From IMG/VR virus record IMGVR_UViG_3300021962_000446, positions 1-29,937 of that record: a DNA stretch of 29,937 bases; one strand, written 5' to 3'. A program made the position numbers and the translations under genes. Origin of the DNA: a virus. The notes under the pieces were generated by a model that saw only the letters and a program-made list of their open reading frames with translations, ran no database searches and was not told where the DNA came from. Below are positions 3,142 to 20,791 of the stretch, piece by piece (the stretch's first letter is position 1; each line of letters opens with the position of its first letter).

Positions 3142-3151
3142 GAGTGAACAG

Positions 3152-3304
3152 ATGACAATTTTGATTCTCGAGATGGTGGCAGTTTTTTTGATTGCGCTCG
3201 GCATATTTTACATTGCGCTTCCGCTTGGGCTAATCTTTGTGGGCATATCTCTGCTTGCCTTCACTTTGGCTTGGGAGCGTTCGAAGAAAGCGGATAGAAC
3301 CTGA
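3152..3304 (+). CDS. Small two-helix membrane protein
   Basis: A 50-residue ORF starts with ATG eleven bases after the terminase stop, preceded by GGAG at 3141-3144. Its TGA overlaps the portal ATG by one base (TGATG). Residues 3-23 and 25-41 are strongly hydrophobic and separated by a Pro-Leu-Gly turn; the tail is charged (WERSKKADRT). It fills the terminase-portal gap exactly with good translational signals, so it is probably real. It looks like a small inner-membrane protein. I do not recognise the family. Position does not suggest lysis; a role at the membrane early in assembly or in superinfection control is only a guess. Confidence 0.7.
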   Translation: MTILILEMVAVFLIALGIFYIALPLGLIFVGISLLAFTLAWERSKKADRT

Positions 3305-5228: not shown

Positions 5229-5966
5229 ATGGCGGTCAAAAGATTCCTGCTCGACACGAGCGAACTGAACGACGCCACCTACGGGTTAGATGGCGGTCTC
5301 GCATTCATTCTTGACACCAGCACACTTGACGGCGCACAAGTTCTTGATGGTGCAGAGTTCCTAACCACAGCGACAGGTTCGTCATCACTCGGCGGTATAT
5401 CGGCAACAGGATCAGCGACCGTCAAACACTTCGCAACTGCTTCAACATCGCTTGGCGAATTGTCGTCGTCAGGAACTGCAACTGTCAAACACATCGTCAC
5501 CGCTTCAGCACCGCTGGGCGGATTGGATTCTTCAGCACAAGCCAAAGCAAAGAAGTCCGCTACTGCTTCAACCGATCTTGGTGGACTTGACGCTTCGGCA
5601 ACAACAAAAGTCTCAAAGACTGTTATCGCGTCAGCAGATCTTGGTGGACTTGATGCTTCGGCCACAACCAAAGTTGCCAAGTCTGCAATCGCTTCAGCCG
5701 ATCTTGGCGGACTGGTCGCAACCGCTGACGCAACCGACACTCCACCAGAACCAACACCAGAACCAATACCTTCAGGCGGACGACAATACGCCGCACCACG
5801 ACGCAAGAAGATTGAACCGCTACCAGAAGTCAAGATACCAGTCATCCAACCGAAACGACGCTACGCGGTCGCGTCAACAACCTTGAACGCAATGCAAGCG
5901 CAAGCAGTCGGGACAATAACTTTCAGCATCTTGGACGATGATGCTGAGATATTGTTGTTGGTCTAA
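5229..5966 (+). CDS. Repeat-containing virion protein
   Basis: The 245-residue protein is unusual in design. The N-terminus has two related short motifs, FLLDTSELND (residues 6-15) and FILDTSTLDG (26-35). Residues about 48-160 contain at least five and a half tandem 21-residue repeats of the form ASADLGGLDASATTKVAKS. A Pro/Glu hinge follows (PPEPTPEPIP), then a basic segment (RQYAAPRRKKIEP) and one degenerate repeat near the end. The stop overlaps the next ATG (TAATG). The FILDTSTLDG motif recurs in the minor tail protein at 18226, at DNA as well as protein level. The repeats suggest an extended shaft, so a head fibre or decoration protein is plausible. No family is recognised with certainty. 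Confidence 0.72.
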   Translation: MAVKRFLLDTSELNDATYGLDGGLAFILDTSTLDGAQVLDGAEFLTTATGSSSLGGISATGSATVKHFATASTSLGELSSSGTATVKHIVTASAPLGGLDSSAQAKAKKSATASTDLGGLDASATTKVSKTVIASADLGGLDASATTKVAKSAIASADLGGLVATADATDTPPEPTPEPIPSGGRQYAAPRRKKIEPLPEVKIPVIQPKRRYAVASTTLNAMQAQAVGTITFSILDDDAEILLLV

Positions 5967-7972
5967 TGCCTTACTTCATCACAGACAAGTCACCAGATTG
6001 TTCTGGTTGGGCAACCATCAAAGAAGATGGCGAAGTGATCGGCTGCCACACAACCAAACAGGACGCAATCGACCAGATGGTCGCAGTGTCTTTGGCCGAA
6101 GATATGGAACCAGGTGGTGAACGCAACAGTGATGCCAATGAAGTAGTCATCGTTGATGTTGACGGAACTCTAATCGCTGGTGGTCGAGGCATTCAAAAAA
6201 ATGTTGACTATGTCAACAATCTTTACGACGACTACGACATCTATATCGTGACTGGTCGACCAGAATCAGATGAAGAAAAAACATTGAAAGAACTCGCTGA
6301 CGCCGGAGTTCAATTTGACAACATCGAGTTCAACGATGATCTATCTATTCCGACTGCAACTTACAAAAAAACAAAAGCACGAGAAATCTTAAATGAAAAA
6401 CCAGTCAAGTTAGCGATCGATAATGATGCGGCTACGCGCCGAGCATATTCCGACCTAGGCATCCCGACAATGGATCCAAAAACAATAAAATCTTCTGATG
6501 CGTCGATTCGTCAGGTATCTCTTGAGATACCTGCCTACATTCGTAGCGCGGCCCGAAAAGGATTGGACTATTACGGTCAAGGTCTTGCGGGTGAAGGGCT
6601 GGTCGATAGAACCGTTCGTGAGGCACGAGACATGGCGCGAGGCGACATCACCGAAGACAAAGTTGTGCGAGCGAACGCATGGGCGCAACGACACGCCGTA
6701 GATCTACAAGCACCAAAGAACTCGGACGCGACAAACGATGAGTTCCCTGGTGCGGGTGCGGTCGCACACTATCTATGGGGCATCAATCCGTTGAACCCTC
6801 AACCGGCACGAGATTGGTTCGCAAGAAAATCTGAAGCAATTAAATCCGAACGCGCACCAGCACCGCCATCAGACCAGATCACAGGCTCAGACAAAAATCC
6901 GAAAGGCTCGGCCAAAGCTCCTGCCGGTTCGGACACGATTGAGTTGACCGAAGCAATCGAGTCAGGTTTGAAAACCAAAGCCGATGAACACAACTCAAAA
7001 CTTGACGCATCCGATCCGTCTTGGAAGCGGGCCACTGTCGGAATGTTGCGAACTGTGTTCCGTCGCGGTGCCGGAGCATATTCGACATCTCATCGTCCAG
7101 GCATCACGAGAAACCAGTGGGCGTATGCGCGTGTCAATGCGTTCTTGTATCTTCTGCGCAACGGTCGTCCAGAGAGTCCTGCCTACATCACCGACAATGA
7201 TCTGCTTCCTAAAGATCATCCGCGTTCCTCTAGAACCATGCCTGTGAATGTTGTTATGATTGATGGCATGAGCGAATCATTAGAGACACGCCGCATACAC
7301 ATCAACGACTTCGAACTACGCGAAGGACCGACAGGTGACGGAATGTCGTTCACAGGATATGCGGCAGTGTTCAACTCTGATTCTGAACCGTTGCCGTTCA
7401 TTGAAAGAATCATGCCAGGTGCATTCAAGAAATCTTTGAAAGGTCGCAACACTATCAAGATGTACATGAACCATGATTCGTCAATGTTGCTCGCTTCAAC
7501 ACGTTCAAAGACTTTGCGTCTTGAAGAAGATTCAAAAGGTTTGTTGGTGAACGCCGATCTTCCAGACACGACAGTTGGTCGTGACTTGTCGGTGTTGATG
7601 AAGCGCGGCGATGTTGACTCGATGTCGTTCGGGTTCTCGGTTCCTACTGGTGGCGACAAATGGTCAGATGACGGCATGACCCGTGAACTACGCCAGGTGC
7701 GTTTGCATGAGGTTTCGGTTGTGACAGGGTTCCCTGCCTACAAGGCGACTTCGGCTTCTGTCCGTTCGGTTGATGTTCTTGCCGAACGCACAGGTGTTGA
7801 CGCAGACAAGCTCGCCGAAGCGATCACGATGCTCGAATCTGGCAACACTTTGACCGACGAGTCGGCTGATCTGTTGTCGAGCGCGGTCAGCAAACTTCGA
7901 GCCGAACCAACCAAAGTTCCGGCGTCAGTCGGGTTGTTGGCGAAAAAACTTGAACTGTTGAAAAACTTCTAA
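5966..7972 (+). CDS. Prohead protease fused to HAD-like phosphatase and head-associated domains
   Basis: This 668-residue protein is about three times the length of a simple HK97 prohead protease. In order: (a) residues 1-50, a small domain containing CSGWATIKEDGEVIGCHTT, common at the start of phage head proteins; (b) 58-175, an HAD-like phosphatase domain with DVDGT at 64-68, TGR at 96-98, K148 and IDND at 151-154; (c) 185-295 and 350-420, two helical domains resembling unnamed domains in environmental phage head proteins; (d) 440-600, the protease with candidate catalytic H503 (MNHD) and S552/S554 (DSMSFGF), and E582 in HEVSVV; (e) a helical tail. The protease matures the capsid. The HAD part would act on a phosphoester such as a 3'-phosphate or nucleotide, but its substrate is unknown. 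The HAD segment is visibly more AT-rich than its flanks, suggesting insertion. No internal ribosome site was seen before the protease domain. Confidence 0.9.
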   Translation: MPYFITDKSPDCSGWATIKEDGEVIGCHTTKQDAIDQMVAVSLAEDMEPGGERNSDANEVVIVDVDGTLIAGGRGIQKNVDYVNNLYDDYDIYIVTGRPESDEEKTLKELADAGVQFDNIEFNDDLSIPTATYKKTKAREILNEKPVKLAIDNDAATRRAYSDLGIPTMDPKTIKSSDASIRQVSLEIPAYIRSAARKGLDYYGQGLAGEGLVDRTVREARDMARGDITEDKVVRANAWAQRHAVDLQAPKNSDATNDEFPGAGAVAHYLWGINPLNPQPARDWFARKSEAIKSERAPAPPSDQITGSDKNPKGSAKAPAGSDTIELTEAIESGLKTKADEHNSKLDASDPSWKRATVGMLRTVFRRGAGAYSTSHRPGITRNQWAYARVNAFLYLLRNGRPESPAYITDNDLLPKDHPRSSRTMPVNVVMIDGMSESLETRRIHINDFELREGPTGDGMSFTGYAAVFNSDSEPLPFIERIMPGAFKKSLKGRNTIKMYMNHDSSMLLASTRSKTLRLEEDSKGLLVNADLPDTTVGRDLSVLMKRGDVDSMSFGFSVPTGGDKWSDDGMTRELRQVRLHEVSVVTGFPAYKATSASVRSVDVLAERTGVDADKLAEAITMLESGNTLTDESADLLSSAVSKLRAEPTKVPASVGLLAKKLELLKNF

Positions 7973-8095
7973 ATTCTCATATACACTCGGTCTGTCGGTA
8001 AGCGTCCCGCTACGACTAGAGATTGGTCAGCGTCCCGCGCCATCGGAATACAATCATCCTGCGCATCCACATAACCAATCACTCATGGAGTAATC
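7973..8095 (+). promoter_or_regulatory. Leader of the major capsid gene with twin repeats
   Basis: A 123-base gap precedes the capsid gene. It contains the 10-base direct repeat AGCGTCCCGC at 8001-8010 and 8029-8038; each copy can form a small GCG/CGC hairpin around TCC. A -10-like TACAAT lies at 8049-8054, without a convincing -35 at normal spacing. GGAG at 8087-8090 is five bases before the capsid ATG. An independent promoter or RNA-processing site boosting capsid output would be sensible, but the evidence is weak. Confidence 0.35.
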
Positions 8096-9292
8096 ATGAA
8101 ACAATTTATTGAACAACAAATGGCTCAACGCGCTACAGCGTGGGAAGCCGCAAAGAAGATTCTTGATGTTGCAACCGCTGAGAAGCGTGACTTGACAGCA
8201 GAAGAATCACAGACATACGAGCGCATCAGCAAAGAACTTGAGGATCGCGCCGCAACAATCGAGAAGCTCCGCGCCGATGAGGCCCGTGAACTTCGTCTTG
8301 AAGCAGCAACTCGTGAGATCGCCGACCAGGTTCGTCCAGTCGCAGACGCTCCACGCGGTGTTCGTTCAGATGCAGAAATCGTCCGATCGTTGGCAAAAGG
8401 TGAGATTCGTTCTCACTCGTTTGAAAAGCGTGACGTTGTAAAGACTTCGTCTGGTTCACCAGTTCCGACATCTTTCTACGATCAGGTCATCATGCTTGCC
8501 CGTCACATCGGTCCAATGTTGTCAACTTCGACAGTGTTGAACACGGCTTCTGGCGAGAACCTTCAAATCCCATCGTTGGCACAGTATTCAACTGCTGCAC
8601 TCGTTGGTGAAGGCACAGCAATCAGCGAATCGGATCCGATCTTCAACTCGTTCATCACATTGGGTGCATACAAGTATTCGTTCCTTGTACAGCTCTCAAC
8701 AGAGTTGATCGAAGACGCCGGTGTTGACATCCTTGGCTTCTTGGCCAGCGAAGTTGGCAACGAACTCGGCTACCGAGTCAACGGAGCATTGACAACTGGA
8801 ACAGGCACCAACCAGCCAAAAGGTATCGTCGTAGCATCATCGCTCGGCGTCACCGGCTCGACGGCAGTATCTGGCGCGTTCACAGCAGACAACTTGATCG
8901 ACTTGGTCTACTCGGTAGACACAGCAGGTCGTCGTCTCGCAGGTTCGGGCTTCCAAATGAATGCAGCGTCAATCGGCAAAATGCGCAAACTCAAGGACAC
9001 AGCAGGCAACTATGTGTTCCAACCAGCACTCAGCGCAGATGCCATGGACCTGCTCCTCGGATACCCAGTGTACGAGAACCCAGGTATGGCAGATACAGCA
9101 ACAAGCGCGAAGTCGGTAATCTTCGGACACCTTCCTTCGTACTATGTGCGTCAAGTTGGCGGCATCCGTTTGGATCGCAGCGACGACTACGCATTCAACG
9201 CTGGTCTTGTTACCTTCCGCGCAACAATGCGTGTCGACGGCAACTTGCCACAAACATCACATGTCAAACACTTCATCGGTGGCGCAAGCTGA
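8096..9292 (+). CDS. Major capsid protein (HK97 fold)
   Basis: This is the main shell protein of the head. The 398-residue length and the two-part layout fit the HK97 family. Residues 1-85 are a charged helical scaffold-like (delta) domain, and the shell domain starts near 105. Recognisable stretches include SGENLQIPSL, VGEGTAISESDP, STELIEDAGVDI and the TGTGTNQPKGI turn. Cleavage by the upstream protease is expected around residues 100-115, but the site is not proven. GGAG at 8087 supports the ATG. It is followed at once by two hairpins, the second terminator-like, which would insulate the high-level capsid transcript. Confidence 0.95.
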   Translation: MKQFIEQQMAQRATAWEAAKKILDVATAEKRDLTAEESQTYERISKELEDRAATIEKLRADEARELRLEAATREIADQVRPVADAPRGVRSDAEIVRSLAKGEIRSHSFEKRDVVKTSSGSPVPTSFYDQVIMLARHIGPMLSTSTVLNTASGENLQIPSLAQYSTAALVGEGTAISESDPIFNSFITLGAYKYSFLVQLSTELIEDAGVDILGFLASEVGNELGYRVNGALTTGTGTNQPKGIVVASSLGVTGSTAVSGAFTADNLIDLVYSVDTAGRRLAGSGFQMNAASIGKMRKLKDTAGNYVFQPALSADAMDLLLGYPVYENPGMADTATSAKSVIFGHLPSYYVRQVGGIRLDRSDDYAFNAGLVTFRATMRVDGNLPQTSHVKHFIGGAS

Positions 9293-9322
9293 TAACCAGT
9301 TAGCAAAACTGAAACAGACATG

Positions 9323-9340
9323 ACAGTCCGCAAGGACTGT
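9323..9340 (+). other. Short GCAA-tetraloop hairpin downstream of the capsid gene
   Basis: ACAGTCC and GGACTGT form a perfect 7-bp stem closed by a GCAA (GNRA) loop. It lies 31 bases after the capsid stop and just upstream of the longer terminator-like hairpin. A GNRA loop is a stable RNA cap, so 3'-end protection of the capsid mRNA is a reasonable guess. Confidence 0.5.
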
Positions 9341-9350
9341 GACTAGGATT

Positions 9351-9398
9351 AAGTCCACGGCCTATTCGTGCAGGGTTGGCCGTGGACTTTCCCTTTCT
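9351..9398 (+). terminator. Probable rho-independent terminator after the capsid gene
   Basis: AAGTCCACGGCC (9351-9362) and GGCCGTGGACTT (9378-9389) form a perfect 12-bp stem with a 15-base loop, followed by the pyrimidine tract TCCCTTTCT. The tail is not a pure U-run, so termination may be partial, allowing read-through into the glycosyltransferase genes. The position directly after the capsid gene is typical of phage terminators. Confidence 0.72.
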
Positions 9399-9418
9399 GC
9401 ACTAAACTTAGGAGGATC

Positions 9419-9643
9419 ATGTGGCAGACCGTAATCGTCAAGAACGTACCAGTCGAGATGCCGGGATATTTAGCGGAGCGTTTGCTCCGAGCGGGCGTAG
9501 CGCACTTGTTGGAAGTGTCCGACCTGCCAATCCCGACCGACTCAGAATCCTCTGGTATTCAAACGCACCTTGGGCAGCAACCGGATACGGTCAGCAAACC
9601 GCGCAAGTCATCCAAAGGCTCGCGAAAGAAGGCCATCAAGTAG
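9419..9643 (+). CDS. Small protein overlapping the first glycosyltransferase
   Basis: The ORF encodes 74 residues from ATG 9419, with GGAGG at 9411-9415 (a short spacing of three bases). The first 40 residues look like a real folded protein (VIVKNVPVEMPGYLAERLL, then RAGVAHLLEVSD), and the tail is Lys/Arg-rich, as in many small phage head proteins. The glycosyltransferase is read from the -1 frame over the same DNA, so at least 100 bases carry clear glycosyltransferase sequence in the other frame. Either the two genes overlap by 223 bases, or this is the true N-terminal part of the glycosyltransferase reached by a -1 shift, or the contig has a base error. Function unknown. Confidence 0.5.
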   Translation: MWQTVIVKNVPVEMPGYLAERLLRAGVAHLLEVSDLPIPTDSESSGIQTHLGQQPDTVSKPRKSSKGSRKKAIK

Positions 9644-10716
9644 CAGTCCACGCGATGTACGGCTTGGCGGGCGCGGCATCAACTTGGAATGGGTTCAAAA
9701 TCTATCCGCAAGGACTCGCCGCATATTCTGACGATGTGCTTCTCGCACACACAATGGAATGGGCGAACCAAGATCTGTCGACACCAACTTTGATGATGAC
9801 TTTGTTTGATGTGTGGGTGTTGAAATCTGAGTCGTTGAAAGATTGGAAGAACATTGCGTCGTGGGTTCCGATTGATCATCAGCCGACACCACCAGATGTG
9901 TTGGCTTGGTGTGCGCGTCCGAACGTGCGACCGATAGCGATGTCGAAGTTTGGTTCACGAATGCTTGACATCGCAGGTGTCGAGCATCTTTATGTTCCTC
10001 ACGCAATCGAACCTGTGTTTCAGCCGACCGAATCGGTGATGTTGGCGAACGGTCGCAAGATGACTGGTCGCGAGTTCATGGGCTGGGAAGAAGACAGATT
10101 CGTCGTGTCTATGGTTGCGACGAACAAAGGCAATCAGCCTGCGCGTAAGTCGTGGGCCGAGAACATTCTTGCGTTCTCAATCTTTGCCAAGGATCATCCT
10201 GATGCGGTGCTGTATTTGTACACGGAGCCTGATGGTGCGATGGCAGGCATCAATTTGCCGACGCTTCTTGATGCGGTCGGTGTCGGCAAAGACAAATACA
10301 AGGTTGTCGACCAGTACGCCTACAGGCATTCGCTGCCGCAGAATGTGATGGCTGCGATGTACACGGCATCAGATGTGTTGCTGTCCTGCTCGATGGGTGA
10401 AGGTTTCGGCATTCCAGTCATCGAAGCGCAGGCTTGCGGTTGTCGGGTTATCGTCTCGAACTTCACGGCTCAACCTGAACTTGTCGGTGACGGCTGGACG
10501 GTTGAAGGTCAACCGTATTGGGATGCGGCACAGAAATCATGGTTTTTTACACCTAACGTGCCAGACATCGTAAATGCGCTCAAATCGGCCTATAACGCGC
10601 CTAGAGGCCCGTCTAAGGACGCGATCACCCATGCCCTAGGGTACGGAGCCGACAAGGTATTTGACGAGCATTGGAAGCCCGTCATGAAGGAGCTGTCTGC
10701 ATGGTGCCGGTCATAG
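9421..10716 (+). CDS. GT-B glycosyltransferase (GT4-like)
   Basis: This is a sugar transferase with two Rossmann-like domains. The conserved part begins at residue 41 (RLRILWYSNAPWAATGYGQQ), a typical nucleotide-sugar GT-B opening. The retaining-enzyme signature GEGFGIPVIEAQACG is at 326-340, with E327 and E335 in the E-x7-E arrangement. The only in-frame start before the conserved core is GTG 9421, five bases after GGAGG, sharing its ribosome site with ATG 9419. The first 40 residues in this frame are Arg-rich and look unlike a protein core, so the true N-terminus is uncertain. It is the first of four successive glycosyltransferase genes and overlaps the next by 16 bases. Donor and acceptor are unknown; virion proteins or a host glycan are plausible acceptors. 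Confidence 0.87.
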   Translation: MADRNRQERTSRDAGIFSGAFAPSGRSALVGSVRPANPDRLRILWYSNAPWAATGYGQQTAQVIQRLAKEGHQVAVHAMYGLAGAASTWNGFKIYPQGLAAYSDDVLLAHTMEWANQDLSTPTLMMTLFDVWVLKSESLKDWKNIASWVPIDHQPTPPDVLAWCARPNVRPIAMSKFGSRMLDIAGVEHLYVPHAIEPVFQPTESVMLANGRKMTGREFMGWEEDRFVVSMVATNKGNQPARKSWAENILAFSIFAKDHPDAVLYLYTEPDGAMAGINLPTLLDAVGVGKDKYKVVDQYAYRHSLPQNVMAAMYTASDVLLSCSMGEGFGIPVIEAQACGCRVIVSNFTAQPELVGDGWTVEGQPYWDAAQKSWFFTPNVPDIVNALKSAYNAPRGPSKDAITHALGYGADKVFDEHWKPVMKELSAWCRS

Positions 10717-11354
10717 TCATACCCGTTCTAAACACATACGACCAACTAGAACGCTGCATCAAAACAATCGACTACGCGGTCGACATCCTGATCGTCATCG
10801 ACAATGGCGGTCGGATCGCCAAAGACTTCTTGGTTCTGCCACGCAACCCAAACATCCGCAAACAAATCATCCTTGACATGCCAACCAATCTCGGTGTCGC
10901 AACATCGTGGAATCTTGGCATCAAGATGACACCGTTCGCATCAGGTTGGATTCTTCTCAACTCGGACGCATGGTTCGAGCGCGACGAATTGAAAAAATTT
11001 TATAGCGGATGCGATATAGACGAAATCCATTTGGCAGGTCAACCAGGTTGGTGCTGTGCGTGGATCGGCTCAGATGTCGTCAAAGATGTCGGCCTGTTCT
11101 GCGAGGCATATTATCCCGCCTACTTCGAAGACAACGACTATGAACGACGCGCAACACGCATGAACAAAAAAATTGTCAAAACAAACGCAATCGTCTACCA
11201 CGACAATTCATCGACTCTCGCCAACGATCCGTCGCTCGCCGTAAAGAACCGCAAAAGTTTCGAATCAAATCTTGAGTTGTTCAAACTTCGCAACGTGCGT
11301 CTTGATGCCGGCGAATGGGATCTGACACGTCGCATTGAACTCAGTTGGGACTAA
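10701..11354 (+). CDS. GT2-like glycosyltransferase (GT-A fold)
   Basis: The 217-residue protein starts at ATG 10701 with AAGGAG at 10687-10692; an ORF start further upstream at 10671 would lie deep in the previous gene. It opens with VPVIVIPVLNTYDQLERCI, the standard GT-A beginning. It then has the NLGVATSWNLGI segment, LLNSDAW where family members carry the metal-binding DxD-type motif, and YFEDNDYERR, a likely ED acid/base site. The stop overlaps the next ATG by one base. It probably transfers a sugar from a nucleotide donor; the substrate is unknown. Confidence 0.87.
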   Translation: MVPVIVIPVLNTYDQLERCIKTIDYAVDILIVIDNGGRIAKDFLVLPRNPNIRKQIILDMPTNLGVATSWNLGIKMTPFASGWILLNSDAWFERDELKKFYSGCDIDEIHLAGQPGWCCAWIGSDVVKDVGLFCEAYYPAYFEDNDYERRATRMNKKIVKTNAIVYHDNSSTLANDPSLAVKNRKSFESNLELFKLRNVRLDAGEWDLTRRIELSWD

Positions 11355-12088
11355 TGAGAATCTTTGACTGCATCCTGTTCAACCAAGAACACGACATGCT
11401 TGAATGTCGACTGACAGAACTTGGTGATGTCATAGACAAGATCGTCATCGTTGAATCATCGACCACGTTCATGGGTCAATCTAAACCGCACGGCATTGAT
11501 CTTGACAGGTTCTACAAATGGCGCGACAAAATCCACTACGAAACATTCGAACCGAACCCATATCAGTTAGGTTGGGCTGCTGAACATGCACAACGCAACC
11601 ATCTGTTCGTTGCGTTGCAAGAGTTCACACCTGAAGCCGACGACATTGTGACCATTGCCGACTGTGACGAAATCTGGAACCCAGCCGACATCGAGATACT
11701 GAAAAAAGGTTGGCGTGGCTACATCATGAAGCGTCTTGTGATGTCGGCGTATTGGCGTTTATCGGATGAACATACGATGGTGGCGGGACCGTGGGGTCAA
11801 CGTGCTGGTGGTGCGCAACATATCAGATCAAACCGTGAACGGCTACCTAACTTGCGCTCAGGTTGGCATGTGTCTTGGATGGGTGGACCGCAATGGGCTG
11901 CGAACAAGATGCGATCGTTCTCTCATCAAGAACTCATGGTCAATGACCCTGAAGCATTCATGGCCGAGAACTATCGAATCGGTCGCTCAATACGCGGCGA
12001 ATCTGTCTGGCAACAAGAAATGGATGATTCGTACCCTGCCTATATTCGTAAAGGTCTTGCACCTGAATCTTGGTATCGACGTCAATGA
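11354..12088 (+). CDS. GT17-like glycosyltransferase
   Basis: The 244-residue protein starts at ATG 11354 inside the previous stop (TAATG). The opening MRIFDCILFNQEHDMLECRL and the following DKIVIVESSTTFMGQ strongly resemble GT17 enzymes, a family that includes beta-1,4-N-acetylglucosaminyltransferases. IADCDEIWNP (near residues 105-115) is the probable DxD metal-donor site. Later Trp-rich segments (GWHVSWMGGPQWA) are also typical of this group. It overlaps the next gene by four bases (ATGA). The substrate is unknown, but the tight coupling suggests a common glycan pathway with its neighbours. Confidence 0.83.
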   Translation: MRIFDCILFNQEHDMLECRLTELGDVIDKIVIVESSTTFMGQSKPHGIDLDRFYKWRDKIHYETFEPNPYQLGWAAEHAQRNHLFVALQEFTPEADDIVTIADCDEIWNPADIEILKKGWRGYIMKRLVMSAYWRLSDEHTMVAGPWGQRAGGAQHIRSNRERLPNLRSGWHVSWMGGPQWAANKMRSFSHQELMVNDPEAFMAENYRIGRSIRGESVWQQEMDDSYPAYIRKGLAPESWYRRQ

Positions 12089-12720
12089 TTACGGTTGTCG
12101 GGTTTGCGTGGGGTACCGCATACAAAGATGAGGTGCAAGGTTGGTGGGATGCGATACAAGCATTGAACCCAGCTGCAGATGACGTGGTAGTTGCATATCA
12201 TCCTGATGATGATTGCGGTGTGGAGGACTTGCCATGTCGGCTAGTCCAGTGTGAGATTCGGACACCTGCTGCGATGTATCACGCAGCGATCGCAACAATC
12301 AAAGAAGGCTGGATCGCTGGATGTGCGATGGATGACAGGTTCTATCCTGACGCATTCGGTTGTATGCCAGACAACCTTGACAAAGTTGCAGACGTGGTCG
12401 CGAACACTTTGCGATTCATGTCTAATGGTGGGGTGAATCCGTCCGCACCTGAACGGTTCGCTACGCATCCGATGGTGAATCATGTGATGGGTACGTCTTG
12501 GTTCACGAAAGATATTTGGGAACGCACTGGTGGATATCCTGACGTGTATTGGTCGGATTGGGGTTTCTGGTGGAAGTGTCATGTGCATGGTGCTAGATGG
12601 TTCAAGCCGACAGGTGTGCAGGTGTTGGTGAACGACATCCGACCAAATCGTCTTTCTTCGAGCGAGAACATTGAGGCCGATATTGAGATGCGCAAGTTCA
12701 TCGCAGAGTACACTCGATGA
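12085..12720 (+). CDS. Glycosyltransferase-like protein (GT-A type)
   Basis: The 211-residue protein starts at ATG 12085, which overlaps the previous stop by four bases; a longer ORF from 12070 lies inside the upstream gene. It begins ITVVGFAWGTAYKDEV, followed by a Rossmann-like half, then CAMDDRFYPDAF near residue 80, a likely acidic donor site, and WERTGGYPDVYWSDWGFWWK, which resembles the acceptor-side segment of GT2 enzymes. It is the weakest of the four in sequence signatures but sits in the same operon. It is followed by 25 bases and the connector gene. Confidence 0.72.
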   Translation: MITVVGFAWGTAYKDEVQGWWDAIQALNPAADDVVVAYHPDDDCGVEDLPCRLVQCEIRTPAAMYHAAIATIKEGWIAGCAMDDRFYPDAFGCMPDNLDKVADVVANTLRFMSNGGVNPSAPERFATHPMVNHVMGTSWFTKDIWERTGGYPDVYWSDWGFWWKCHVHGARWFKPTGVQVLVNDIRPNRLSSSENIEADIEMRKFIAEYTR

Positions 12721-12730
12721 GACTCTGAAG

Positions 12731-12736
12731 TAGGAT
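12731..12736 (+). promoter_or_regulatory. Possible -10 element before the connector gene
   Basis: TAGGAT lies nine bases before ATG 12746, in a gap lacking a good ribosome site. The same arrangement occurs at 16115 before the tape measure gene. This fits a promoter giving a leaderless or near-leaderless mRNA, a common arrangement in actinobacteria, but no -35 is evident. Confidence 0.3.
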
Positions 12737-12745
12737 TAGACCACT

Positions 12746-13372
12746 ATGGCAATCACAAACGGCTACGCCACACGCAACCAGATCAAGGCCGCTCTTCGTA
12801 TCGGCACAGCCGACACACAAGATGACGAACTAATTGACAACTGTGCCGGTGCTGCTTCACGTCTAATTGATGGTTATGCGAACCGACAGTTTTGGGCTTA
12901 CGGTTCGGCGACCGTGAGAGTGTTCACGGCAGGCGACGAATATGTTTGCGAAATAGACGACATCGGATCAACCGCGATCACACTCAAAACATCAACACTT
13001 GCAGACGGCGTATTCGATGTCACCTGGTCGCCAACCGATTATCAACTAGAACCAGTCAACGGAATCTTGGACGGACTCACAGTCCCATACACGCGCATCC
13101 GTGCAGTCGGCGACTATCTGTTCCCGACATTGAACGCAAACTACGGCTCGGAAGCATTGGTGCAACTCACAGCCATCTACGGTTGGCCATCGGTACCTGA
13201 ACCGATCACGCAAGCCTGCATCATTCAGGCGTCAAGAATCTTCAAACGCTACGACTCTCCGCTCGGCGTTGCCGGCTTCGGTGATCTCGGTGCGATTCGC
13301 GTCTCTCGATTCCTCGACCCTGACATGGCTCAGCTTGTCGAACCATATCGAAGGATGCGGATGTTCGCATGA
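12746..13372 (+). CDS. Head-tail connector protein (gp6-like)
   Basis: This protein probably forms the ring bound under the portal. The N-terminal segment YATRNQIKAALRI, then DDELIDNCAGAASRLIDGYANRQFWA, is the helical signature of gp6-like connectors. The rest alternates beta strands and ends with the helix EPITQACIIQASRIFKRYDS and a PYRRMRMFA tail. The length of 208 residues is normal. It is the first virion gene after the glycosyltransferase cassette and overlaps the next gene by four bases. No Shine-Dalgarno sequence precedes the ATG; see the TAGGAT element. Confidence 0.85.
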   Translation: MAITNGYATRNQIKAALRIGTADTQDDELIDNCAGAASRLIDGYANRQFWAYGSATVRVFTAGDEYVCEIDDIGSTAITLKTSTLADGVFDVTWSPTDYQLEPVNGILDGLTVPYTRIRAVGDYLFPTLNANYGSEALVQLTAIYGWPSVPEPITQACIIQASRIFKRYDSPLGVAGFGDLGAIRVSRFLDPDMAQLVEPYRRMRMFA

Positions 13373-13779
13373 CCGCCACAGTCACCGAACTAAAAACAGG
13401 ACTACAAACACGTCTTGCAACAATCACAAACCTTCGCGCCTACGCAACACAACCCGATCAAGTGAACCCATCGGTCGGAGGTATCGCATGGCCCACACTC
13501 GAATCAATCACCTACCACGGTGCAATGAAGGCTGGGCTTGTCACGCATGTCTTCACAGTCAGCGTGATTGTCGGTCGTGCAGCCGAACGAACATCACAAA
13601 ACCTACTCGATCAATACCTGTCGTATGACGGTGGGATTCGTGCGGCAATCGAAGCCGACACCAGCCTTGGCGGATACGCCAGAACATTGATCGTTGAAGA
13701 AGCATCCAACATCTCAACCGTGGACGCAAACGACACGACATATCTAACTGTCGACTTTCGTGTCGTGGTGTATGCTTAG
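13369..13779 (+). CDS. Neck or tail completion protein
   Basis: The 136-residue protein starts with ATGA overlap to the connector gene. The opening helix TELKTGLQTRLATI, a compact middle with SITYHGAM and HVFTVSVIVGRAAERTSQN, and the C-terminal strand TTYLTVDFRVVVYA match the layout of phage tail terminator/completion proteins. Placement between connector and tail tube supports that. It probably caps the tail tube at the neck. Assignment rests on fold-like pattern and order, not on a catalytic motif. Confidence 0.65.
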   Translation: MTATVTELKTGLQTRLATITNLRAYATQPDQVNPSVGGIAWPTLESITYHGAMKAGLVTHVFTVSVIVGRAAERTSQNLLDQYLSYDGGIRAAIEADTSLGGYARTLIVEEASNISTVDANDTTYLTVDFRVVVYA

Positions 13780-13782
13780 CCT

Positions 13783-13950
13783 ATGGCAAAGTATCAGGTC
13801 GTCGAAGGTTTCACTGTTCTAGACAAACAATATCCAGCCACTATTGATGGCGACGAGGTTGACCATCTAGACTCTCTTCTGGCATCGGGTCGCATTGTTC
13901 TGGTGGCAGATAAATCAACTTCTAAAGCCGACAAGGCAGGAGATAAATAA
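13783..13950 (+). CDS. Small conserved-type virion-region protein
   Basis: A 55-residue ORF fills the gap between the completion and tail tube genes. It begins MAKYQVVEGFTVLDKQYPAT, contains a DHLDSLLASGRIVLVAD segment and ends Lys-rich (KSTSKADKAGDK). Short proteins of this kind (a strand, a binding pocket helix, a charged tail) are common beside connector genes in actinobacteriophages. No ribosome site is seen, but TATGCT at 13771-13776 is six bases before the ATG, compatible with leaderless expression. Function unknown. Confidence 0.66.
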   Translation: MAKYQVVEGFTVLDKQYPATIDGDEVDHLDSLLASGRIVLVADKSTSKADKAGDK

Positions 13951-13952
13951 TC

Positions 13953-14363
13953 ATGGCAAAGTTAGTTCTCACAAGCGCATCAGTCACTCTCAACGGCACA
14001 GATATCTCAACTGACGTGGCAGCAGTTACGTTAAGCACTTCGGCAGCCGAAGTACCAACAACTTCGTTCGGCTCTGGTGGTGCAGTAACTCGCGTCGCAG
14101 GCCTCATCGATAATTCTGTGACATTGTCTTTGCACAACGAGTTCTCGTCGCTTGAAGGTTTGATCTACCCATTGATCGGTTCAACAGCCGTCACGATCGT
14201 GATCAAGGCAAGCACCGCTGCTGTGTCAACCGCAAACCCGTCATACACCGCTTCGGTTCTTTGCACCGAATGGACACCAGTCAACGGTGCTGTCGGTGAA
14301 TTGAACACAGCCGATGTAACGTGGCCGATCAGCGGAACAATCACAAAATCGACAACACCATAA
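13953..14363 (+). CDS. Major tail (tube) protein
   Basis: This is probably the repeating subunit of the tail tube. The 136-residue protein is almost all beta, Ser/Thr/Ala/Val-rich, beginning MAKLVLTSASVTLNGTDIS, with TTSFGSGGAVTRVAGLIDNS in the middle and TWPISGTITKSTTP at the end, which are usual tail-tube features in siphoviruses. It lies just upstream of the frameshifting chaperone gene, the canonical position. AGGAG at 13938-13942 supports the ATG. It is at the short end for tube proteins. Confidence 0.82.
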   Translation: MAKLVLTSASVTLNGTDISTDVAAVTLSTSAAEVPTTSFGSGGAVTRVAGLIDNSVTLSLHNEFSSLEGLIYPLIGSTAVTIVIKASTAAVSTANPSYTASVLCTEWTPVNGAVGELNTADVTWPISGTITKSTTP

Positions 14364-14383
14364 TTCTCAACTAGGAGGCAAGA

Positions 14384-14668
14384 ATGAAAATCAATTTGGA
14401 AGTCACAACGCTCGACAACGTCACCCAAAAAGTGACAGCACAGTTCGCCGACTTCATCGCATTCGAAACAGAAAAGAATCGATCAGTCGCAAACTTTCAA
14501 ACAGAACTCAAGTTGACCGACCTTGCCTGGTTGGCGTGGCATGCAACGAAGCGCACAAAGAAGACTGCGATGAAGTTTGAAGAATGGATTGAGACAGTTG
14601 AGAGTGTGGAGGTTGGAACCGATTCTGCGGTGATCGTCCCTTTGGAGAACAATCAGCCCACTGGCTGA
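14384..14668 (+). CDS. Tail assembly chaperone, short (G-like) product
   Basis: The 94-residue product is read without frameshifting, with an AGGAGG ribosome site just upstream. It is helical and charged, with an aromatic helix (LAWLAWHATKRT), and ends PLENNQPTG. By analogy with lambda gpG it binds the tape measure protein during tail assembly. The frameshift heptamer lies at its codons 86-87. Position between tail tube and tape measure is canonical. Confidence 0.85.
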   Translation: MKINLEVTTLDNVTQKVTAQFADFIAFETEKNRSVANFQTELKLTDLAWLAWHATKRTKKTAMKFEEWIETVESVEVGTDSAVIVPLENNQPTG

Positions 14669-14802
14669 TCGCATACCTCGCCTGCGAGACACACATCGCA
14701 CCATCGGTGCTACTGCAAGAATCACCTAGAATGCTGTACACGATGCTCGGCTATCTGCGCTGGAAGAGCGTCAAATCCAACCCACCACAAAGGATCAACT
14801 GA
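14384..14802 (+). CDS. Tail assembly chaperone, frameshifted (G-T-like) product
   Basis: This product uses a -1 ribosomal frameshift. The heptamer CCCTTTG at 14638-14644 is a perfect X-XXY-YYZ site in the frame of the gene (C CCT TTG). After Leu87 the reading moves back one base at 14644 and continues GEQSAHWLIAYLACETH, then MLYTMLGYLRWKSVKSN, ending at the TGA at 14800-14802. The fusion is 139 residues. The extension has the Trp/Tyr-rich helical nature of T-type extensions, and its stop overlaps the next ATG by one base, supporting real coding. The feature is given as one span; the actual join is 14384-14644 plus 14644-14802. Confidence 0.87.
14638..14644 (+). promoter_or_regulatory. -1 ribosomal frameshift slippery site
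   Basis: CCCTTTG lies in register as C CCT TTG in the chaperone frame, so both tRNAs can re-pair with CCC and TTT after slipping one base. The -1 frame downstream is open for 52 codons and ends at the next gene start. Confidence 0.85.
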
Positions 14803-15347
14803 TGGCCTTCTCAGCATTCCCGAATCTGCCAGGCGACACAGGTGGAACTCTTGGTCGTGCCGGCACCGCAGCCGTCGCAGGCAACACTGTTGAAGTTAAA
14901 GATCTATTTGAAACTTTGCGCAAGTTTCAGAAAGCAAGTAAAGAGTTCAATGGCGAGATGCGCAAGGTTGCTTATCAAATCGCAAGAGGCATAGAAGGTC
15001 AAGTCAGAATTGAAGCCGCATCTGTCAGTCGAGCAAGCCAAGCAATACAGGTAGCCAAAGGCTTGCGAGCAACTAATGACCGCATCCCAACTATCAAGTT
15101 GCGTGGGAACGAATCATTTGTATCTAAGTCACGTCCTAATAGCAAACGCAAAACGAAGGTCACTCGTGCCGATGTGTTCTTTGGTGCTGAGTTTGGTGGC
15201 GGTACTAGACCGACCACGAGACAATTTTTGAGGCATCGCGGTCAGTCTGGATACTTCTTCTGGCCGACCGTCCGCAAACGCAAGAATGAAATCGCCAAAG
15301 AATATCTAGAAGGCATCGATAGAGTCGTCAAACAACTAGGTATTTGA
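14802..15347 (+). CDS. gp10-like / minor tail protein
   Basis: The 181-residue protein starts by TGATG overlap with the frameshifted chaperone. The N-terminal 30 residues are flexible and Gly-rich; residues 30-70 form a charged helix (VKDLFETLRKFQKASKEFNG). The C-terminal half has FFGAEFGGGTRPTTRQFL and SGYFFWPTVRKRKNEIAKEYL, which resemble HK97 gp10-like proteins usually placed at the head-tail joint. Here the gene lies after the tail chaperone, as in a number of actinobacteriophages. A virion or tail-completion role is likely; exact position is uncertain. Confidence 0.6.
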   Translation: MAFSAFPNLPGDTGGTLGRAGTAAVAGNTVEVKDLFETLRKFQKASKEFNGEMRKVAYQIARGIEGQVRIEAASVSRASQAIQVAKGLRATNDRIPTIKLRGNESFVSKSRPNSKRKTKVTRADVFFGAEFGGGTRPTTRQFLRHRGQSGYFFWPTVRKRKNEIAKEYLEGIDRVVKQLGI

Positions 15348-15361
15348 TACTTGCATTCGGC

Positions 15362-15380
15362 TCAGGATTCGCTATCCTGA
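15362..15380 (+). promoter_or_regulatory. Perfect inverted repeat overlapping a possible promoter
   Basis: TCAGGAT-TCGCT-ATCCTGA is a perfect 7-bp inverted repeat. It overlaps a -10-like TATCCT (15373-15378) that lies 16 bases after TTGCAT (15351-15356). An AGGAGG ribosome site follows at 15385-15390. The arrangement looks like an operator placed on a private promoter for the next gene; an RNA hairpin just before the ribosome site is the alternative. Confidence 0.42.
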
Positions 15381-15399
15381 ACCTAGGAGGTTCTGCACA

Positions 15400-16113
15400 G
15401 TGTTTGAAGTCGTCGGTTTCCCATCCGTCAAGTCCATCTACCCAAAGACGATCGCCGAGTCATGGATGCAGTTTGCCCAGATTCTCGGCGACCACAAAGA
15501 ACATGCACAAAAGTCTGACGGCAAACTGTATTCGCCAGTCACCTACCGCGAATACACAACTCGTGGCAATCGCAACGTGTCACACATCTGGGCATTGGTC
15601 GCGGACCTTGACGGCGAAGCATTCGAGAAAGCCGATCTCGGATCGTATATACACTTCGCCTACACAACCTGGTCACATCGCGACAATGACCCACACTGGC
15701 ATGTCGTCGTCCCATTCGAGCAGGCTGTGCCGGTACAAAATTGGGAAGAAGTCTGGTATGAAACACATGAGCGTCTTCGTCTTAAAGGCGACCCAGCAAC
15801 CAAAGACCCTGCCCGTATCTTCTATCTGCCACAGCACGAGGCTGGTCAGCCATTCCGTACACATCATTCAGGTTGGCGATTCCTTGACCCGACCATCACA
15901 GATATCGCCGCACCGACACGCACATTCTCCACACCGAACATTCGCTCGACTCGTCAACCGCGTCGCGGTAATTCGATGCGCTGCGTTCTTGACCCGAAAT
16001 GGTGGGATGCACCGATTGACATGTCGCAGTATGACGGCATGACACAAGCAGAGATTCACGAAGACATGCAACGCGAGTGGGCCGAGTTGAGAAAACGGAT
16101 GGCTGCTAACTGA
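15400..16113 (+). CDS. Primase-like (AEP/replication protein N-domain-like) protein
   Basis: The 237-residue protein uses GTG 15400 with AGGAGG nine bases upstream. It resembles the N-terminal archaeo-eukaryotic primase-like domain of plasmid and phage replication proteins: VADLDGE with D69 and D71 as candidate metal ligands, TTWSHRDNDPHWHVVVPF with H93, H99 and H101, and DPATKDPARIFYLPQ with D131 and D136. A helicase or ATPase half is missing, so it would be a stand-alone domain. Its place inside the tail block, between a gp10-like gene and the tape measure, is odd for a replication function, and it has its own promoter-like and operator-like sequence. It may be an inserted moron-type gene. 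The family assignment is from memory of motif patterns. Confidence 0.58.
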   Translation: MFEVVGFPSVKSIYPKTIAESWMQFAQILGDHKEHAQKSDGKLYSPVTYREYTTRGNRNVSHIWALVADLDGEAFEKADLGSYIHFAYTTWSHRDNDPHWHVVVPFEQAVPVQNWEEVWYETHERLRLKGDPATKDPARIFYLPQHEAGQPFRTHHSGWRFLDPTITDIAAPTRTFSTPNIRSTRQPRRGNSMRCVLDPKWWDAPIDMSQYDGMTQAEIHEDMQREWAELRKRMAAN

Positions 16114-16114
16114 G

Positions 16115-16120
16115 TAGAAT
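16115..16120 (+). promoter_or_regulatory. Possible -10 element before the tape measure gene
   Basis: TAGAAT is nine bases upstream of ATG 16130, directly after the stop of the previous gene. There is no Shine-Dalgarno sequence before the ATG. The spacing matches that of TAGGAT at 12731, hinting at a short-leader or leaderless transcript. No clear -35 is seen. Confidence 0.3.
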
Positions 16121-16129
16121 TGCTTCACC

Positions 16130-18223
16130 ATGGCTGGTGAACGCACATTCTTAGTTCGAATCTTAGGCAACGTCGACGGTGCTGTCACGGCGTTCAAGAA
16201 ACTTGGTAAAGAAGGCGAACGAACAATCGACCAGTTGCAGACCGTTGGCAATGCGCTCGGTGCAGGATTCGATGTAGTCAAGAAAGCGGCGTTCATTGCG
16301 GTTGGAGCGTTCACGGCTGTTGCCGGTGCAGCAACCGCCGCAGCACTCGCCGCAGCCGAAGATGAAAAGTCTCAAAGACTTCTTGCCACACAACTTCAAG
16401 CCACGACAGGTGCATCCAACGCACAGATTCAATCAATAGAACGGTTCATCACTTCAGCGATGTTGGCGACTGGTATCGCCGACACAGATCTGAGATCAGC
16501 GTTCGCGAACCTGACCAGGGCGACAGGCGACGCAACACAATCACAGCGTCTCTTCAATCTCGCGCTCGAGATCAGTGCAGCCACAGGAAAGGACCTAGAT
16601 GCTGTAACCATATCTCTTGGCAAGGCTGCGAATGGTCAGGTTTCGGCACTCAGCAAACTTGGCATTCCGATTGATGAAAATACAAAAAAGAGCAAAGACT
16701 TTAGTTCCGCACTTGTTCAACTTGAAGCACAGTTTGGTGGAGCGTCAGCCGCGGCAGCCGACACGTTCTCAGGACGTTTGGCAATTCTGCAAGCATCACT
16801 TGGCGAAGTAGTCGAATCAATAGGCTTCGCCCTGTTGCCATTCTTCGAACGACTAGTCAAGTTCGTTCAAGACAACATTCTGCCTGCCTTGGTTGCGTTT
16901 GCAGACAACATCGGTGAACGTGGTTTGGTTCTCTCAATCGGATTTGCAATTAATGCGATGGGTGATCTTGGTACTTCATTCCTTGACACGTTTGAAGCGA
17001 TGACTCTTGCGGTATTGAACTTCTTGAAACAGTTCGCCGATCTCGGTCGCACCATCGCATTGACTATCGGATTCACTGCCGCATTGACTGGCAACGCAAT
17101 ACTTGCAGTCAAAGCAACCGCAGCATCATTGGCATTCAAAGCCGCACAACAAGGACTTAACACAGCACTCGAAGCCACACCACGACTATTTGACAGCATT
17201 CGAGCATCTATGGCTCAGGCAGCAATTATCCAGGCCAAAGCATTACCGAGCATTATCGGCACAGCCGATGCTCTTGAACGTCAAGTTACTGCCGGCAAGA
17301 AAAACATCGTTGTTGAAAAAGAACAAATTAGTGTTGGTGGTGGTGTAGCCAAGACTGTTGAGACAGCCAAACAGAAGTTTGAAAAATACACGGATGCGTT
17401 GAAGTCTTCGACATCTGCACAGAAGGCGTTCAACAATGCGCAGAAGGGTACTGCGCAGGCTGCCGACAATTTGAAAGCCGCGCAAGATGATGTTGCGGCC
17501 AAACAGAAGGCGTTGAACGATGCGATCAACGGGTTTGGTGCTGATTCTGATCAGGCTAAGAAAGCTCAGCGAGAACTGTCGGCTGCTCAACGTAATGTGG
17601 CGCAGGCTGGATTCCGTGTCGAGGAAGCGGTGTTCGCTGTCGCTGATGCTGAGAAGAAACTTGCCGAAGTTCGTGCAGATCCGACTTCGAGTGCGCAGGC
17701 GATTCGTCAGGCTGAGATTGATTTGGCGCAAGCAAAGTTGGCTGTTGCTGACGCGAGCGACTCGGAGTTTGAAGCAACGTCCAGATTGAAGGATGCGCAA
17801 CTTGTTTTGAACGAAGCGGTGTCTGGTGCGATCGTCGGTTCGGATACCTACAACAAACTTCTTGACGCGGTCAATGATGCAAAGATCAAAGAGAAGGAAG
17901 CGTCGGATCGTTTGACTGATGCTGTCGAGCGTGAGACTGAAGCCTATGAGAATCTTGCTGAGGCGATCAAGAAGGTTGCTGACGCTGCGGAGACTATGCC
18001 TGGACGTAATCTGGCTGTTCCTACTTTGCCTACGTTGCCGTCTGTGCCGGCACCTGTATCAACTTCGGTGCCGTCTGATATTCGTGGTGGGACTGGTGCG
18101 AACATTGTTATCAATACTGGTATTGGGACGAATGGTTTGGAAGCTGGTCGGCAGATTGTTGAAGTGTTGCAGTCTTATACGAACATCAACCGTGATGCGA
18201 TTGCCGCTCTAGTTCGAAGGTAG
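16130..18223 (+). CDS. Tape measure protein
   Basis: This protein sets tail length and is injected ahead of the DNA. Residues 1-40 begin GERTFLVRILGNVDGAVTAFKKLG, a common tape-measure opening. Hydrophobic segments lie near 50-82 (AAFIAVGAFTAVAGAATAAALAAA) and across 215-345. Residues about 410-635 form long Ala/Lys/Glu-rich coiled coil. The C-terminus has IVINTGIGTNGLEAGRQIVE, typical of actinobacteriophage tape measures. At 697 residues and about 1.5 angstrom per residue the tail would be near 100 nm. It lies downstream of the frameshifting chaperone, as expected. Confidence 0.93.
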   Translation: MAGERTFLVRILGNVDGAVTAFKKLGKEGERTIDQLQTVGNALGAGFDVVKKAAFIAVGAFTAVAGAATAAALAAAEDEKSQRLLATQLQATTGASNAQIQSIERFITSAMLATGIADTDLRSAFANLTRATGDATQSQRLFNLALEISAATGKDLDAVTISLGKAANGQVSALSKLGIPIDENTKKSKDFSSALVQLEAQFGGASAAAADTFSGRLAILQASLGEVVESIGFALLPFFERLVKFVQDNILPALVAFADNIGERGLVLSIGFAINAMGDLGTSFLDTFEAMTLAVLNFLKQFADLGRTIALTIGFTAALTGNAILAVKATAASLAFKAAQQGLNTALEATPRLFDSIRASMAQAAIIQAKALPSIIGTADALERQVTAGKKNIVVEKEQISVGGGVAKTVETAKQKFEKYTDALKSSTSAQKAFNNAQKGTAQAADNLKAAQDDVAAKQKALNDAINGFGADSDQAKKAQRELSAAQRNVAQAGFRVEEAVFAVADAEKKLAEVRADPTSSAQAIRQAEIDLAQAKLAVADASDSEFEATSRLKDAQLVLNEAVSGAIVGSDTYNKLLDAVNDAKIKEKEASDRLTDAVERETEAYENLAEAIKKVADAAETMPGRNLAVPTLPTLPSVPAPVSTSVPSDIRGGTGANIVINTGIGTNGLEAGRQIVEVLQSYTNINRDAIAALVRR

Positions 18224-19864: not shown

Positions 19865-20791
19865 ATGCAAATACTTGCGGGCGTTGGTGCTGCTTTTATA
19901 CCGTTTGCTGGTTATTTTGCTGGCGGGTTTGATTCAGCAAACATTTCTGGAATAGATAAAATCCTTTTTAGTGATGAGTCTCGTTCAACTCTTGCTGCAA
20001 CCCTGACTACAGCAAGGCGTAACCCAGCAAGCATGGCTAATTCAAATGTAGCAGGATATGTAGGTGGCGGTTTTGATACTGGAAACATCTCTGGAATAGA
20101 TAAAATAACTTTTCCTGCTGACACAAAATCAACTTTGGCGGGAACACTTACTTCGGCTCGCCGTGAATTAGCAGGTATGGCTAATAGTGGTACAGCAGGC
20201 TATTTTGGTGGTGGCTACGATGGTTCTGGACCGTACACCGCGGGTATAGATAAAATAACTTTTGCTGCCGACACAAAATCAACAATCGCTGGAACTTTAA
20301 GTGCAGCAGTTGGAAGCCTTGCTGCAATGGCAAACTCTGGTACAGCAGGATACTTCTGCGGCGGTGAAAACAATTCTTCAGTCAAAGTTTCAACGATTGA
20401 CAAAATTACTTTTTCAAGTGACGCTAAATCCACACTTGCAGCGACCTTGAGTACAGCAACAATGGAGTTGGCTGCTATGGCTAATAGCGGGACAGCAGGA
20501 TATATCGGTGGCGGTAATGACTCAACTGGGAGAATATCAAGAATTGATAAAATCACTTTTGCTGCCGATACTAAATCAACACTGGCAGCAACCCTAAGCC
20601 AAGGAACGAATGTTTTGGCGGCTAACGCACAATCTGGAACAGCAGGATATTTTGGTGGCGGAATGGGTCCAAGCAATCTCTCAAGTATTGACAAAATTAC
20701 TTTTGCCGCTGACACGAAATCAACATTGTCGGCGACTTTGAGTTCTGCTCGCCGTGTGCATACAGGCTTTGCACATAGTGGAGTTTTGTAA
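19865..20791 (+). CDS. Six-repeat beta-propeller, probable receptor-binding protein
   Basis: The 308-residue protein consists of six tandem Kelch-like repeats of 48-50 residues. Each has a GY-x-GG start (Tyr at 17, 65, 113, 163, 213, 262), an IDKITF strand (Ile at 30, 78, 128, 178, 227, 275), a DTKSTLAATLS segment and a MANSGTAG end. Six blades would close one propeller, with the N-terminal residues helping to seal it. Such propellers at the end of a tail operon are likely host-recognition tips. The gene is more AT-rich than its neighbours and uses codons such as ATA, AGA and GGA, suggesting exchange between phages. The loop after GG varies most (for example ENNSSVKVS and MGPSNLS), as expected of a binding face. 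No ribosome site is seen. Its stop overlaps the next ATG. Confidence 0.83.
   Translation: MQILAGVGAAFIPFAGYFAGGFDSANISGIDKILFSDESRSTLAATLTTARRNPASMANSNVAGYVGGGFDTGNISGIDKITFPADTKSTLAGTLTSARRELAGMANSGTAGYFGGGYDGSGPYTAGIDKITFAADTKSTIAGTLSAAVGSLAAMANSGTAGYFCGGENNSSVKVSTIDKITFSSDAKSTLAATLSTATMELAAMANSGTAGYIGGGNDSTGRISRIDKITFAADTKSTLAATLSQGTNVLAANAQSGTAGYFGGGMGPSNLSSIDKITFAADTKSTLSATLSSARRVHTGFAHSGVL

Follow-up and report, generated by a model that had tools for sequence, protein, structure and literature searches.

A glycosyltransferase cassette with an exchangeable slot between the capsid and connector genes of a small virus, probably of actinobacteria

Why should a small virus keep four glycosyltransferase (GT) genes in the midst of its virion genes? 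The window examined here (IMG/VR virus record IMGVR_UViG_3300021962_000446, all 29,937 bases) has the gene order of a small siphophage, and between the genes for its major capsid protein and its head-tail connector it carries a 74-amino-acid open reading frame (ORF) followed by GT4, GT2, GT17 and fourth GT genes (Table 1). Its WhiB gene (PF02467, 3e-18) points to an actinobacterial host, and the window appears to come from a small freshwater virus of actinobacteria. I propose, with a probability of roughly 55%, that the cassette is expressed late, can be exchanged as a module and serves to decorate the virion with glycans. The locus is known in kind, given its publication for cluster J mycobacteriophages in 2013 (PMC3706429), its annotation in phage phiPsal1 and the homology of the fourth GT to Baka gp14; a preliminary description of this DNA, which implied that such an insertion is an oddity, was mistaken on this point. 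What is new is the exchange behaviour of the locus.

A query of viral contigs with the capsid protein returned 284 related stretches, and the counts for close relatives rest on the best 80 of these, which were fetched (L001, the window's own copy, was dropped). GT4 is present in all 74 relatives long enough past the capsid gene to be scored, and GT2 in all 61 that reach at least 2.2 kb. The 48 relatives that span the whole stretch from GT2 to the connector show nine arrangements after GT2, assembled from slot families A (GT-A type, phrog_9549), B (GT17), C (no match), D (DUF115/MptE-like, under the cut-off), E (an S-adenosylmethionine-dependent methyltransferase) and F (GT2-like). These are B1-A1, the window's own type (11 relatives), E1-B1-A2-D1 (9), A3 (7), B2-C1-A1 (7), C1 (6), F1-A4 (3), B2-C1 (2), B1-A5 (2) and A6 (1), those of L041, L060-L062 and L067 being set by tblastn. 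Slot protein C matches nothing in Pfam, PHROG or NCBIfam, and among PDB sequences it has just two non-significant hits; the idea that it is itself a GT was dropped, as only its place speaks for this and its structure model is unusable (predicted local distance difference test, pLDDT, 43).

Mapped onto a capsid tree built from the window and 47 of these relatives, the arrangements require 16 changes, against a possible minimum of 8 and a mean of 31.6 when arrangements are shuffled (L080, of type B2-C1-A1, was left out; its capsid match starts at residue 14, at a contig end). Arrangement is therefore clustered on the tree, and so partly inherited. Eight metagenomes, recognised by contig name, hold two fully scored relatives each, and the two differ in arrangement in four of them (3300020042, 3300011115, 3300011335 and 3300020043).

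A recent exchange can be read from the window and its nearest relative, L002. Their DNA is 97.2% identical over 7883-11352, up to the last GT2 codon, and 97.7% identical over 12670-17450, yet L002 has gene C in place of GT17, and its fourth GT is cut in frame, with the first 59 bases and the last part joined in one open frame. This in-frame remnant, about 36 codons long, lies at L002 4218-4330, between gene C and the connector. At the junction 3' of GT2, in 14 representatives and the window, a AGTTGGGA stretch, conserved for the most part, precedes the next start codon; this junction is a plausible place of recombination, the presumed mechanism. That near-identical phages exchange a cassette here in a single step is described in no paper that I found in the literature covered, which leaves out most subscription journals and Ghai et al. 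2017.

The four GT ORFs named by the preliminary description are borne out in place and on their strand, three by sequence profiles and the fourth by its fold. GT4 matches PF00534 (4e-11; 43.1 bits against a curated cut-off of 26.4) and phrog_2170 (1.7e-32), and an EX7E motif can be read in it by eye. GT2 matches phrog_29879 (3.4e-39) and lies at the edge of the Pfam family Glycos_transf_2 (1e-4; 22.7 bits against a cut-off of 23.3, and 23.3 bits when scanned with its in-frame neighbours); D88 of its NSD motif is invariant in 18 sequences. The alignment designated A4 holds 18 of the 32 GT2 representatives, while L233 was kept out of alignments A1 and A3 for its distorted-looking ORFs and L041 out of alignment A3. 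GT17 matches PF04724 (1e-23; 84.5 bits against a cut-off of 26) with D106, D108 and E109 invariant in nine sequences, and its profile found a single non-significant match among PDB sequences (E 0.29). In one scan of genome contigs two distant relatives, at 29-32%, were in Polynucleobacter and a betaproteobacterial metagenome-assembled genome, and I assign no donor; relatives of the B2-type GT17 occur in Gordonia phage GMA2 (25%) and cyanophages (23%).

The fourth GT has no Pfam match and meets phrog_9549, 'glycosyltransferase', at 3e-4. The preliminary description had called it GT-A-like and proposed structure prediction as a check, and the AlphaFold model, built from 22 sequences, indeed has a GT-A fold (pLDDT 92, predicted template-modelling score 0.89). 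Its best PDB matches are the fucosyltransferase WrtF (E 4.9e-11, TMq 0.77), RmlT and SpsA, and an acidic pair, D86 D87, is invariant in the 22 sequences and fits a GT-A metal site, metal binding being predicted. The model thus identifies the protein, with high confidence, as a GT-A enzyme.

The distribution of the cassette extends to the wider clade of phiPsal1, where a further scan, queried with the phiPsal1 capsid, yielded 80 loci, 63 of them scorable. GT4 stands at the same place in 53 of the 63 and GT2 alone in two (L135, L144); a methyltransferase precedes GT4 in one (L157), and in seven the connector follows straight after the capsid gene. L150, too short to be scored among the 63, is an eighth empty site. 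The earlier statement that capsid and connector genes are normally nearly adjacent thus holds for eight relatives (L133, L145-L150 and L156), in which the connector begins 78-91 nucleotides after the capsid gene, and the comparison of the capsid-connector interval that it had suggested does yield cassette-free relatives. On the capsid tree the GT4 bearers need at least two changes, one of them forced by strongly supported branches.

Besides GT4 and GT2, the intervals of the phiPsal1 clade contain a cytidylyltransferase-like enzyme, NAD epimerases, FkbM-type and other methyltransferases, a TOD1/MUCI70-type GT and further GT4s, with one of ten scanned ORFs (the first of L091) lacking a match. 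In L111 a 140-amino-acid cytidylyltransferase-like protein (PF01467, 5e-17) lies after GT2 at 3123-3542, and ORFs of similar size stand at the same place in several other loci of the clade. The window's own interval has neither a methyltransferase nor a kinase; among its close relatives, a methyltransferase occurs in those with arrangement E1-B1-A2-D1. Taken together, GTs, methyltransferases, NAD epimerases, a cytidylyltransferase and few unassigned ORFs make the relatives' interval a locus of glycan biosynthesis and no chance pile of GTs. This interval content supports well the serial pathway of the preliminary description, whereas 'defined', as it called the oligosaccharide, can stand only with a reservation: given the frequent exchange of the outer genes, even close relatives must make different products.

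Could the interval simply be a passive insertion hotspot, its genes a cargo with no steady phage function? Empty sites do exist, at two separate places on the capsid tree, and two near-complete empty-site records, G001 and G002, have no GT1- or GT2-family gene anywhere. Against this, the median ratio of nonsynonymous to synonymous substitution rates (dN/dS) is 0.14-0.17 for GT4, GT2 and GT17 and 0.17 for capsid (for the fourth GT it comes from 5 sequences and 7 pairs only). The GT genes are under purifying selection like the capsid gene, and their catalytic residues are invariant. Such selection, with a GT4 in every scorable close relative, argues that the cassette is not there by chance, and I regard a mere hotspot as hardly credible.

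If the cassette decorates the virion, GT4 and GT2 would use nucleotide sugars of the host to build the inner portion of a glycan, presumably in the order of their genes, and the genes after GT2 (in the window GT17 and the GT-A enzyme) would set the outer sugars. Phages that circulate together would trade slot genes through recombination at the conserved GT2 and connector ends, each exchange would change the sugar coat of the particle, and the selective reason may be evasion of host, grazer or competitor molecules that would otherwise bind it. The acceptor would most likely be a virion protein of the same operon, such as the capsid, the tail tube or another surface protein. I favour virion glycosylation because of the position in the virion operon, the lack of a DNA-hypermodification gene among those found, and kinship to mycobacteriophage modules. 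The fourth GT is homologous to Baka gp14 (hhalign probability 98.4, E 5.9e-15; both phrog_9549), which stands with four other GTs, a kinase and a methyltransferase in the capsid-to-connector cassette of Baka (gp11-gp20). The F1 phage Tweety in turn has a phrog_9549 GT, and the same methyltransferase family as the Baka cassette, near a phrog_854 glucosyltransferase, and phrog_854 is also the family of Che8 gp110. PMC12363180, citing Freeman et al. 2023, names Che8 gp110 and Corndog gp38 as essential for viral capsid glycosylation, so that the chain suggests virion glycosylation by association.

Several observations weigh against the virion as target. The window's GT4, GT2 and GT17 stand outside this chain and have no detectable orthologue in the Che8 and Baka modules among the pairs compared. 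A scan for capsid sites, which compared 130 GT4-bearing with 8 empty-site capsids, found no acceptor: 2 of 22 Ser/Thr columns are lost in empty-site relatives, as are 2 of 171 conserved columns of other classes, and one of the two lost Ser/Thr columns is kept in the empty-site L148 and L150, few lineages being involved. I therefore rejected these columns as evidence for an acceptor, the differences being not above background. Cassettes of the phiPsal1 clade with epimerases and a TagD-like cytidylyltransferase would also suit remodelling of a cell-wall polymer. Finally, L160 has GT4 alone, and with the two loci that have only GT2 it indicates that a fixed order of GT4 then GT2 is not required.

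The preliminary description had offered both the virion and the host surface as glycan targets, and both are plausible. At the host surface, the enzymes would remodel a wall polymer or exopolysaccharide and so block adsorption of other phages, or of progeny, to the infected cell or its debris. The fold neighbours of the fourth GT include RmlT, TarS and TarP, wall teichoic acid GTs, and in part of the phiPsal1-clade cassettes there are a CTP_transf_like enzyme and NAD epimerases. A host-surface role is also how the authors read the GTs of a hypervariable island in the structural region of pelagimyophages (PMC7029224), and it is one of two roles proposed for GTs of Nanopelagicales phages (PMC10202952). 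However, the genes lie among late virion genes, which would be late for exclusion, and no sign of a membrane protein was noticed in the interval, no membrane predictor having been run. Nor does cassette type follow the fibre-like gene at 19865-20788, whose role is putative. Among 31 other records it has a relative in one, G014 (L023, arrangement A3), and it is absent from the window-type carriers G013, G016, G017, G020, G021 and G024, some of which are fragments. The count is small, but this independence mildly disfavours a receptor-matched role, and I consider action at the host surface a serious, though less likely, rival. The fibre-like protein itself is repeat-rich, and it seems to turn over faster than the cassette.

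Two other acceptors can be weighed against the general virion coat. One is a single dedicated protein, encoded at 21532-23037, which has a PA14 domain (1e-7) and a long stalk very rich in Thr and Ser. Its gene occurs in 19 of 32 records, every one of them from the window's clade. A hydrophobic, signal-like segment can be seen in the protein by eye. As phiPsal1 and the four further cassette bearers searched in its clade (G009, G028-G030) lack the protein, a general acceptor it cannot be; that the glycans serve this protein is improbable. As an observation in its own right, its stalk is Ser/Thr/Pro-rich and mucin-like. The other is hypermodified phage DNA, whose glycosylation has been proposed for related actinophages (PMC10202952). 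The thymidylate synthase/hydroxymethylase family PF00303 occurs in none of 11 records, and there is no base-modification enzyme among the window ORFs scanned, some small ORFs lying outside the scan. GT17 and a GT4-GT2 series with sugar methyltransferases bear no known resemblance to DNA GTs, and I judge a role in DNA modification to be very improbable.

Returning to the virion-decorating module, I tentatively suggest, at less than even odds, that the locus is to the virus what an O-antigen or capsule locus is to a bacterium, with a fixed GT4-GT2 base, a slot that is swapped wholesale, and many particle 'glycotypes' in one population. If this is true, free-living phages switch their coat sugars to evade recognition in water or on the host, with no vertebrate immunity involved. 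In the literature covered, glycosylation of virions by phage enzymes has been shown in a few mycobacteriophages, and the reason given there is escape from antibodies. Here, nearly all members of a group of small aquatic actinophages, which meet no antibodies, have a comparable module, and it changes very fast. What selects the coat sugars of phages in nature thus becomes a testable question, since there are natural variants by a single enzyme on a near-identical background (the window and L002) and empty-site relatives as controls.

The beginning of the interval shows an unusual overlapping-gene arrangement. The preliminary description let the cassette start at 9419; the GT4 ORF opens at 9421, but the enzyme domain begins only at about 9532, behind about 37 poorly conserved residues, and the same DNA codes also for the 74-amino-acid protein. 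The two starts lie in different frames and read ATGTGG in all 68 sequences (the window and 67 relatives). Across these sequences codon-position constraint falls on the small frame in the first 60 bases, on the GT4 frame from 9540 and on both at 9599-9628. The GT4 frame is nevertheless open over codons 1-37 in 68 of 68 (46 distinct DNA stretches), with little amino-acid conservation, where synonymous shuffling predicts a stop in 78.5%; in a capsid control, 2 of 120 test windows are open in all sequences. Codons 2-48 of the GT4 frame contain no ATG, GTG or TTG in any of the 68 sequences. As read from the sequence, one Shine-Dalgarno motif, AGGAGG, precedes the pair, and the simplest reading is that of two starts with one shared Shine-Dalgarno sequence. 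Fusion of the small protein to GT4 by a frameshift near 9530 is disfavoured by the open GT4 frame, whereas a very early frameshift, directly after the start, may give a fused product. No phage or PHROG homologue of the 74-amino-acid gene was found, and the gene was not seen in phiPsal1-clade loci.

The features of the interval and its borders are listed in Table 1. The starts of GT2, GT17 and the fourth GT lie inside or overlap the preceding gene, and the genes thus look like a tight translational unit. The preliminary description placed the cassette after a capsid terminator. A strong hairpin is present there, but its T-run is weak and a consensus terminator scan does not list it, so that it is only likely to be a terminator, and terminator or attenuator is the probable reading. 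A similar hairpin-like sequence can be seen by eye 3' of the capsid gene in empty-site relatives. Elsewhere in the window, a 668-amino-acid prohead protease ORF (5966-7972) has an N-terminal HAD/polynucleotide-kinase-like domain and a DUF5824 stretch before its S78 protease domain, and a ParB-like N-terminal domain is fused to an N6/N4 DNA methylase (38-1261) directly ahead of the terminase genes.

Table 1. Features of the capsid-connector interval of the window and its borders.
Feature	Position	Strand	Evidence and remarks
Major capsid protein, HK97 fold	8096-9292	+	PF05065 3e-56, phrog_10; left border of the interval
Strong RNA hairpin, 3' of the capsid gene	9351-9388 (approx.)	+	-29.4 kcal/mol, z -5.1
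Small 74-amino-acid gene	9419-9643	+	Codon-position constraint in its own frame over 9419-9540, and in both frames at about 9599-9640; ATG 9419 sits 2 nucleotides before GT4 GTG 9421
GT4 glycosyltransferase	9421-10716	+	PF00534, phrog_2170
GT2 glycosyltransferase	10701-11354	+	phrog_29879; ATG 10701, ORF open from TTG 10671
GT17 glycosyltransferase, exchangeable slot	11354-12088	+	PF04724; ATG 11354 overlaps GT2 stop; ORF open from TTG 11345
Fourth GT, predicted GT-A fold, family A/phrog_9549, exchangeable slot	12085-12720	+	ATG 12085 overlaps GT17 stop
gp6-like head-tail connector	12746-13372	+	phrog_5938 1e-12, phrog_442 3e-12; right border of the interval

How does the locus compare with known systems? 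The cluster J phages Omega, Baka, Thibault, Optimus, Courthouse and LittleE have a cassette of several GTs in the corresponding interval, bounded by the major capsid and head-tail connector genes, and, like the window's group as a whole, they combine GTs with a methyltransferase and vary in content between members (PMC3706429). They are larger phages, with 8-10 genes in the interval including a kinase and a protease, and according to that text the role was not tested there. The window's GT2 and GT17 have no match to the Baka genes compared, and no GT17 family member is found among the Baka genes scanned. Virion glycosylation modules have been established by experiment in mycobacteriophages Che8, Corndog and Myrna (Freeman et al. 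2023, as cited in PMC12363180). Che8 likewise has an actinophage module of several GTs (gp108-gp110), and slot family F of the window's relatives has matches to the two families of Che8 gp108, phrog_8858 and phrog_14775. Its GT genes differ in lying near the right end and not beside capsid, and virion glycosylation, experimental there, is for the window a proposal; in the pairs compared, neither GT4, GT2 nor the fourth GT of the window is orthologous to a Che8 gene, and none of the window GTs is an orthologue of gp110. The Pontimonas phage phiPsal1 (MG835450) resembles the window in having GT4 (43% identity) and GT2 (39%) between capsid and a gp6-like neck gene. It differs in an opposite-strand methyltransferase between GT4 and GT2 and in having no GT17, fourth GT or 74-amino-acid overlapping gene, and according to its own source paper (PMC6106888) the phage receives no further discussion there. 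Finally, the island of pelagimyophages is far larger (about 45 kb), sits in large myophages with tail fibres and is interpreted by its authors as modifying the host surface, but, as in the window's group, it is a variable GT-bearing island inside the structural region, with conserved virion genes on either side (PMC7029224).

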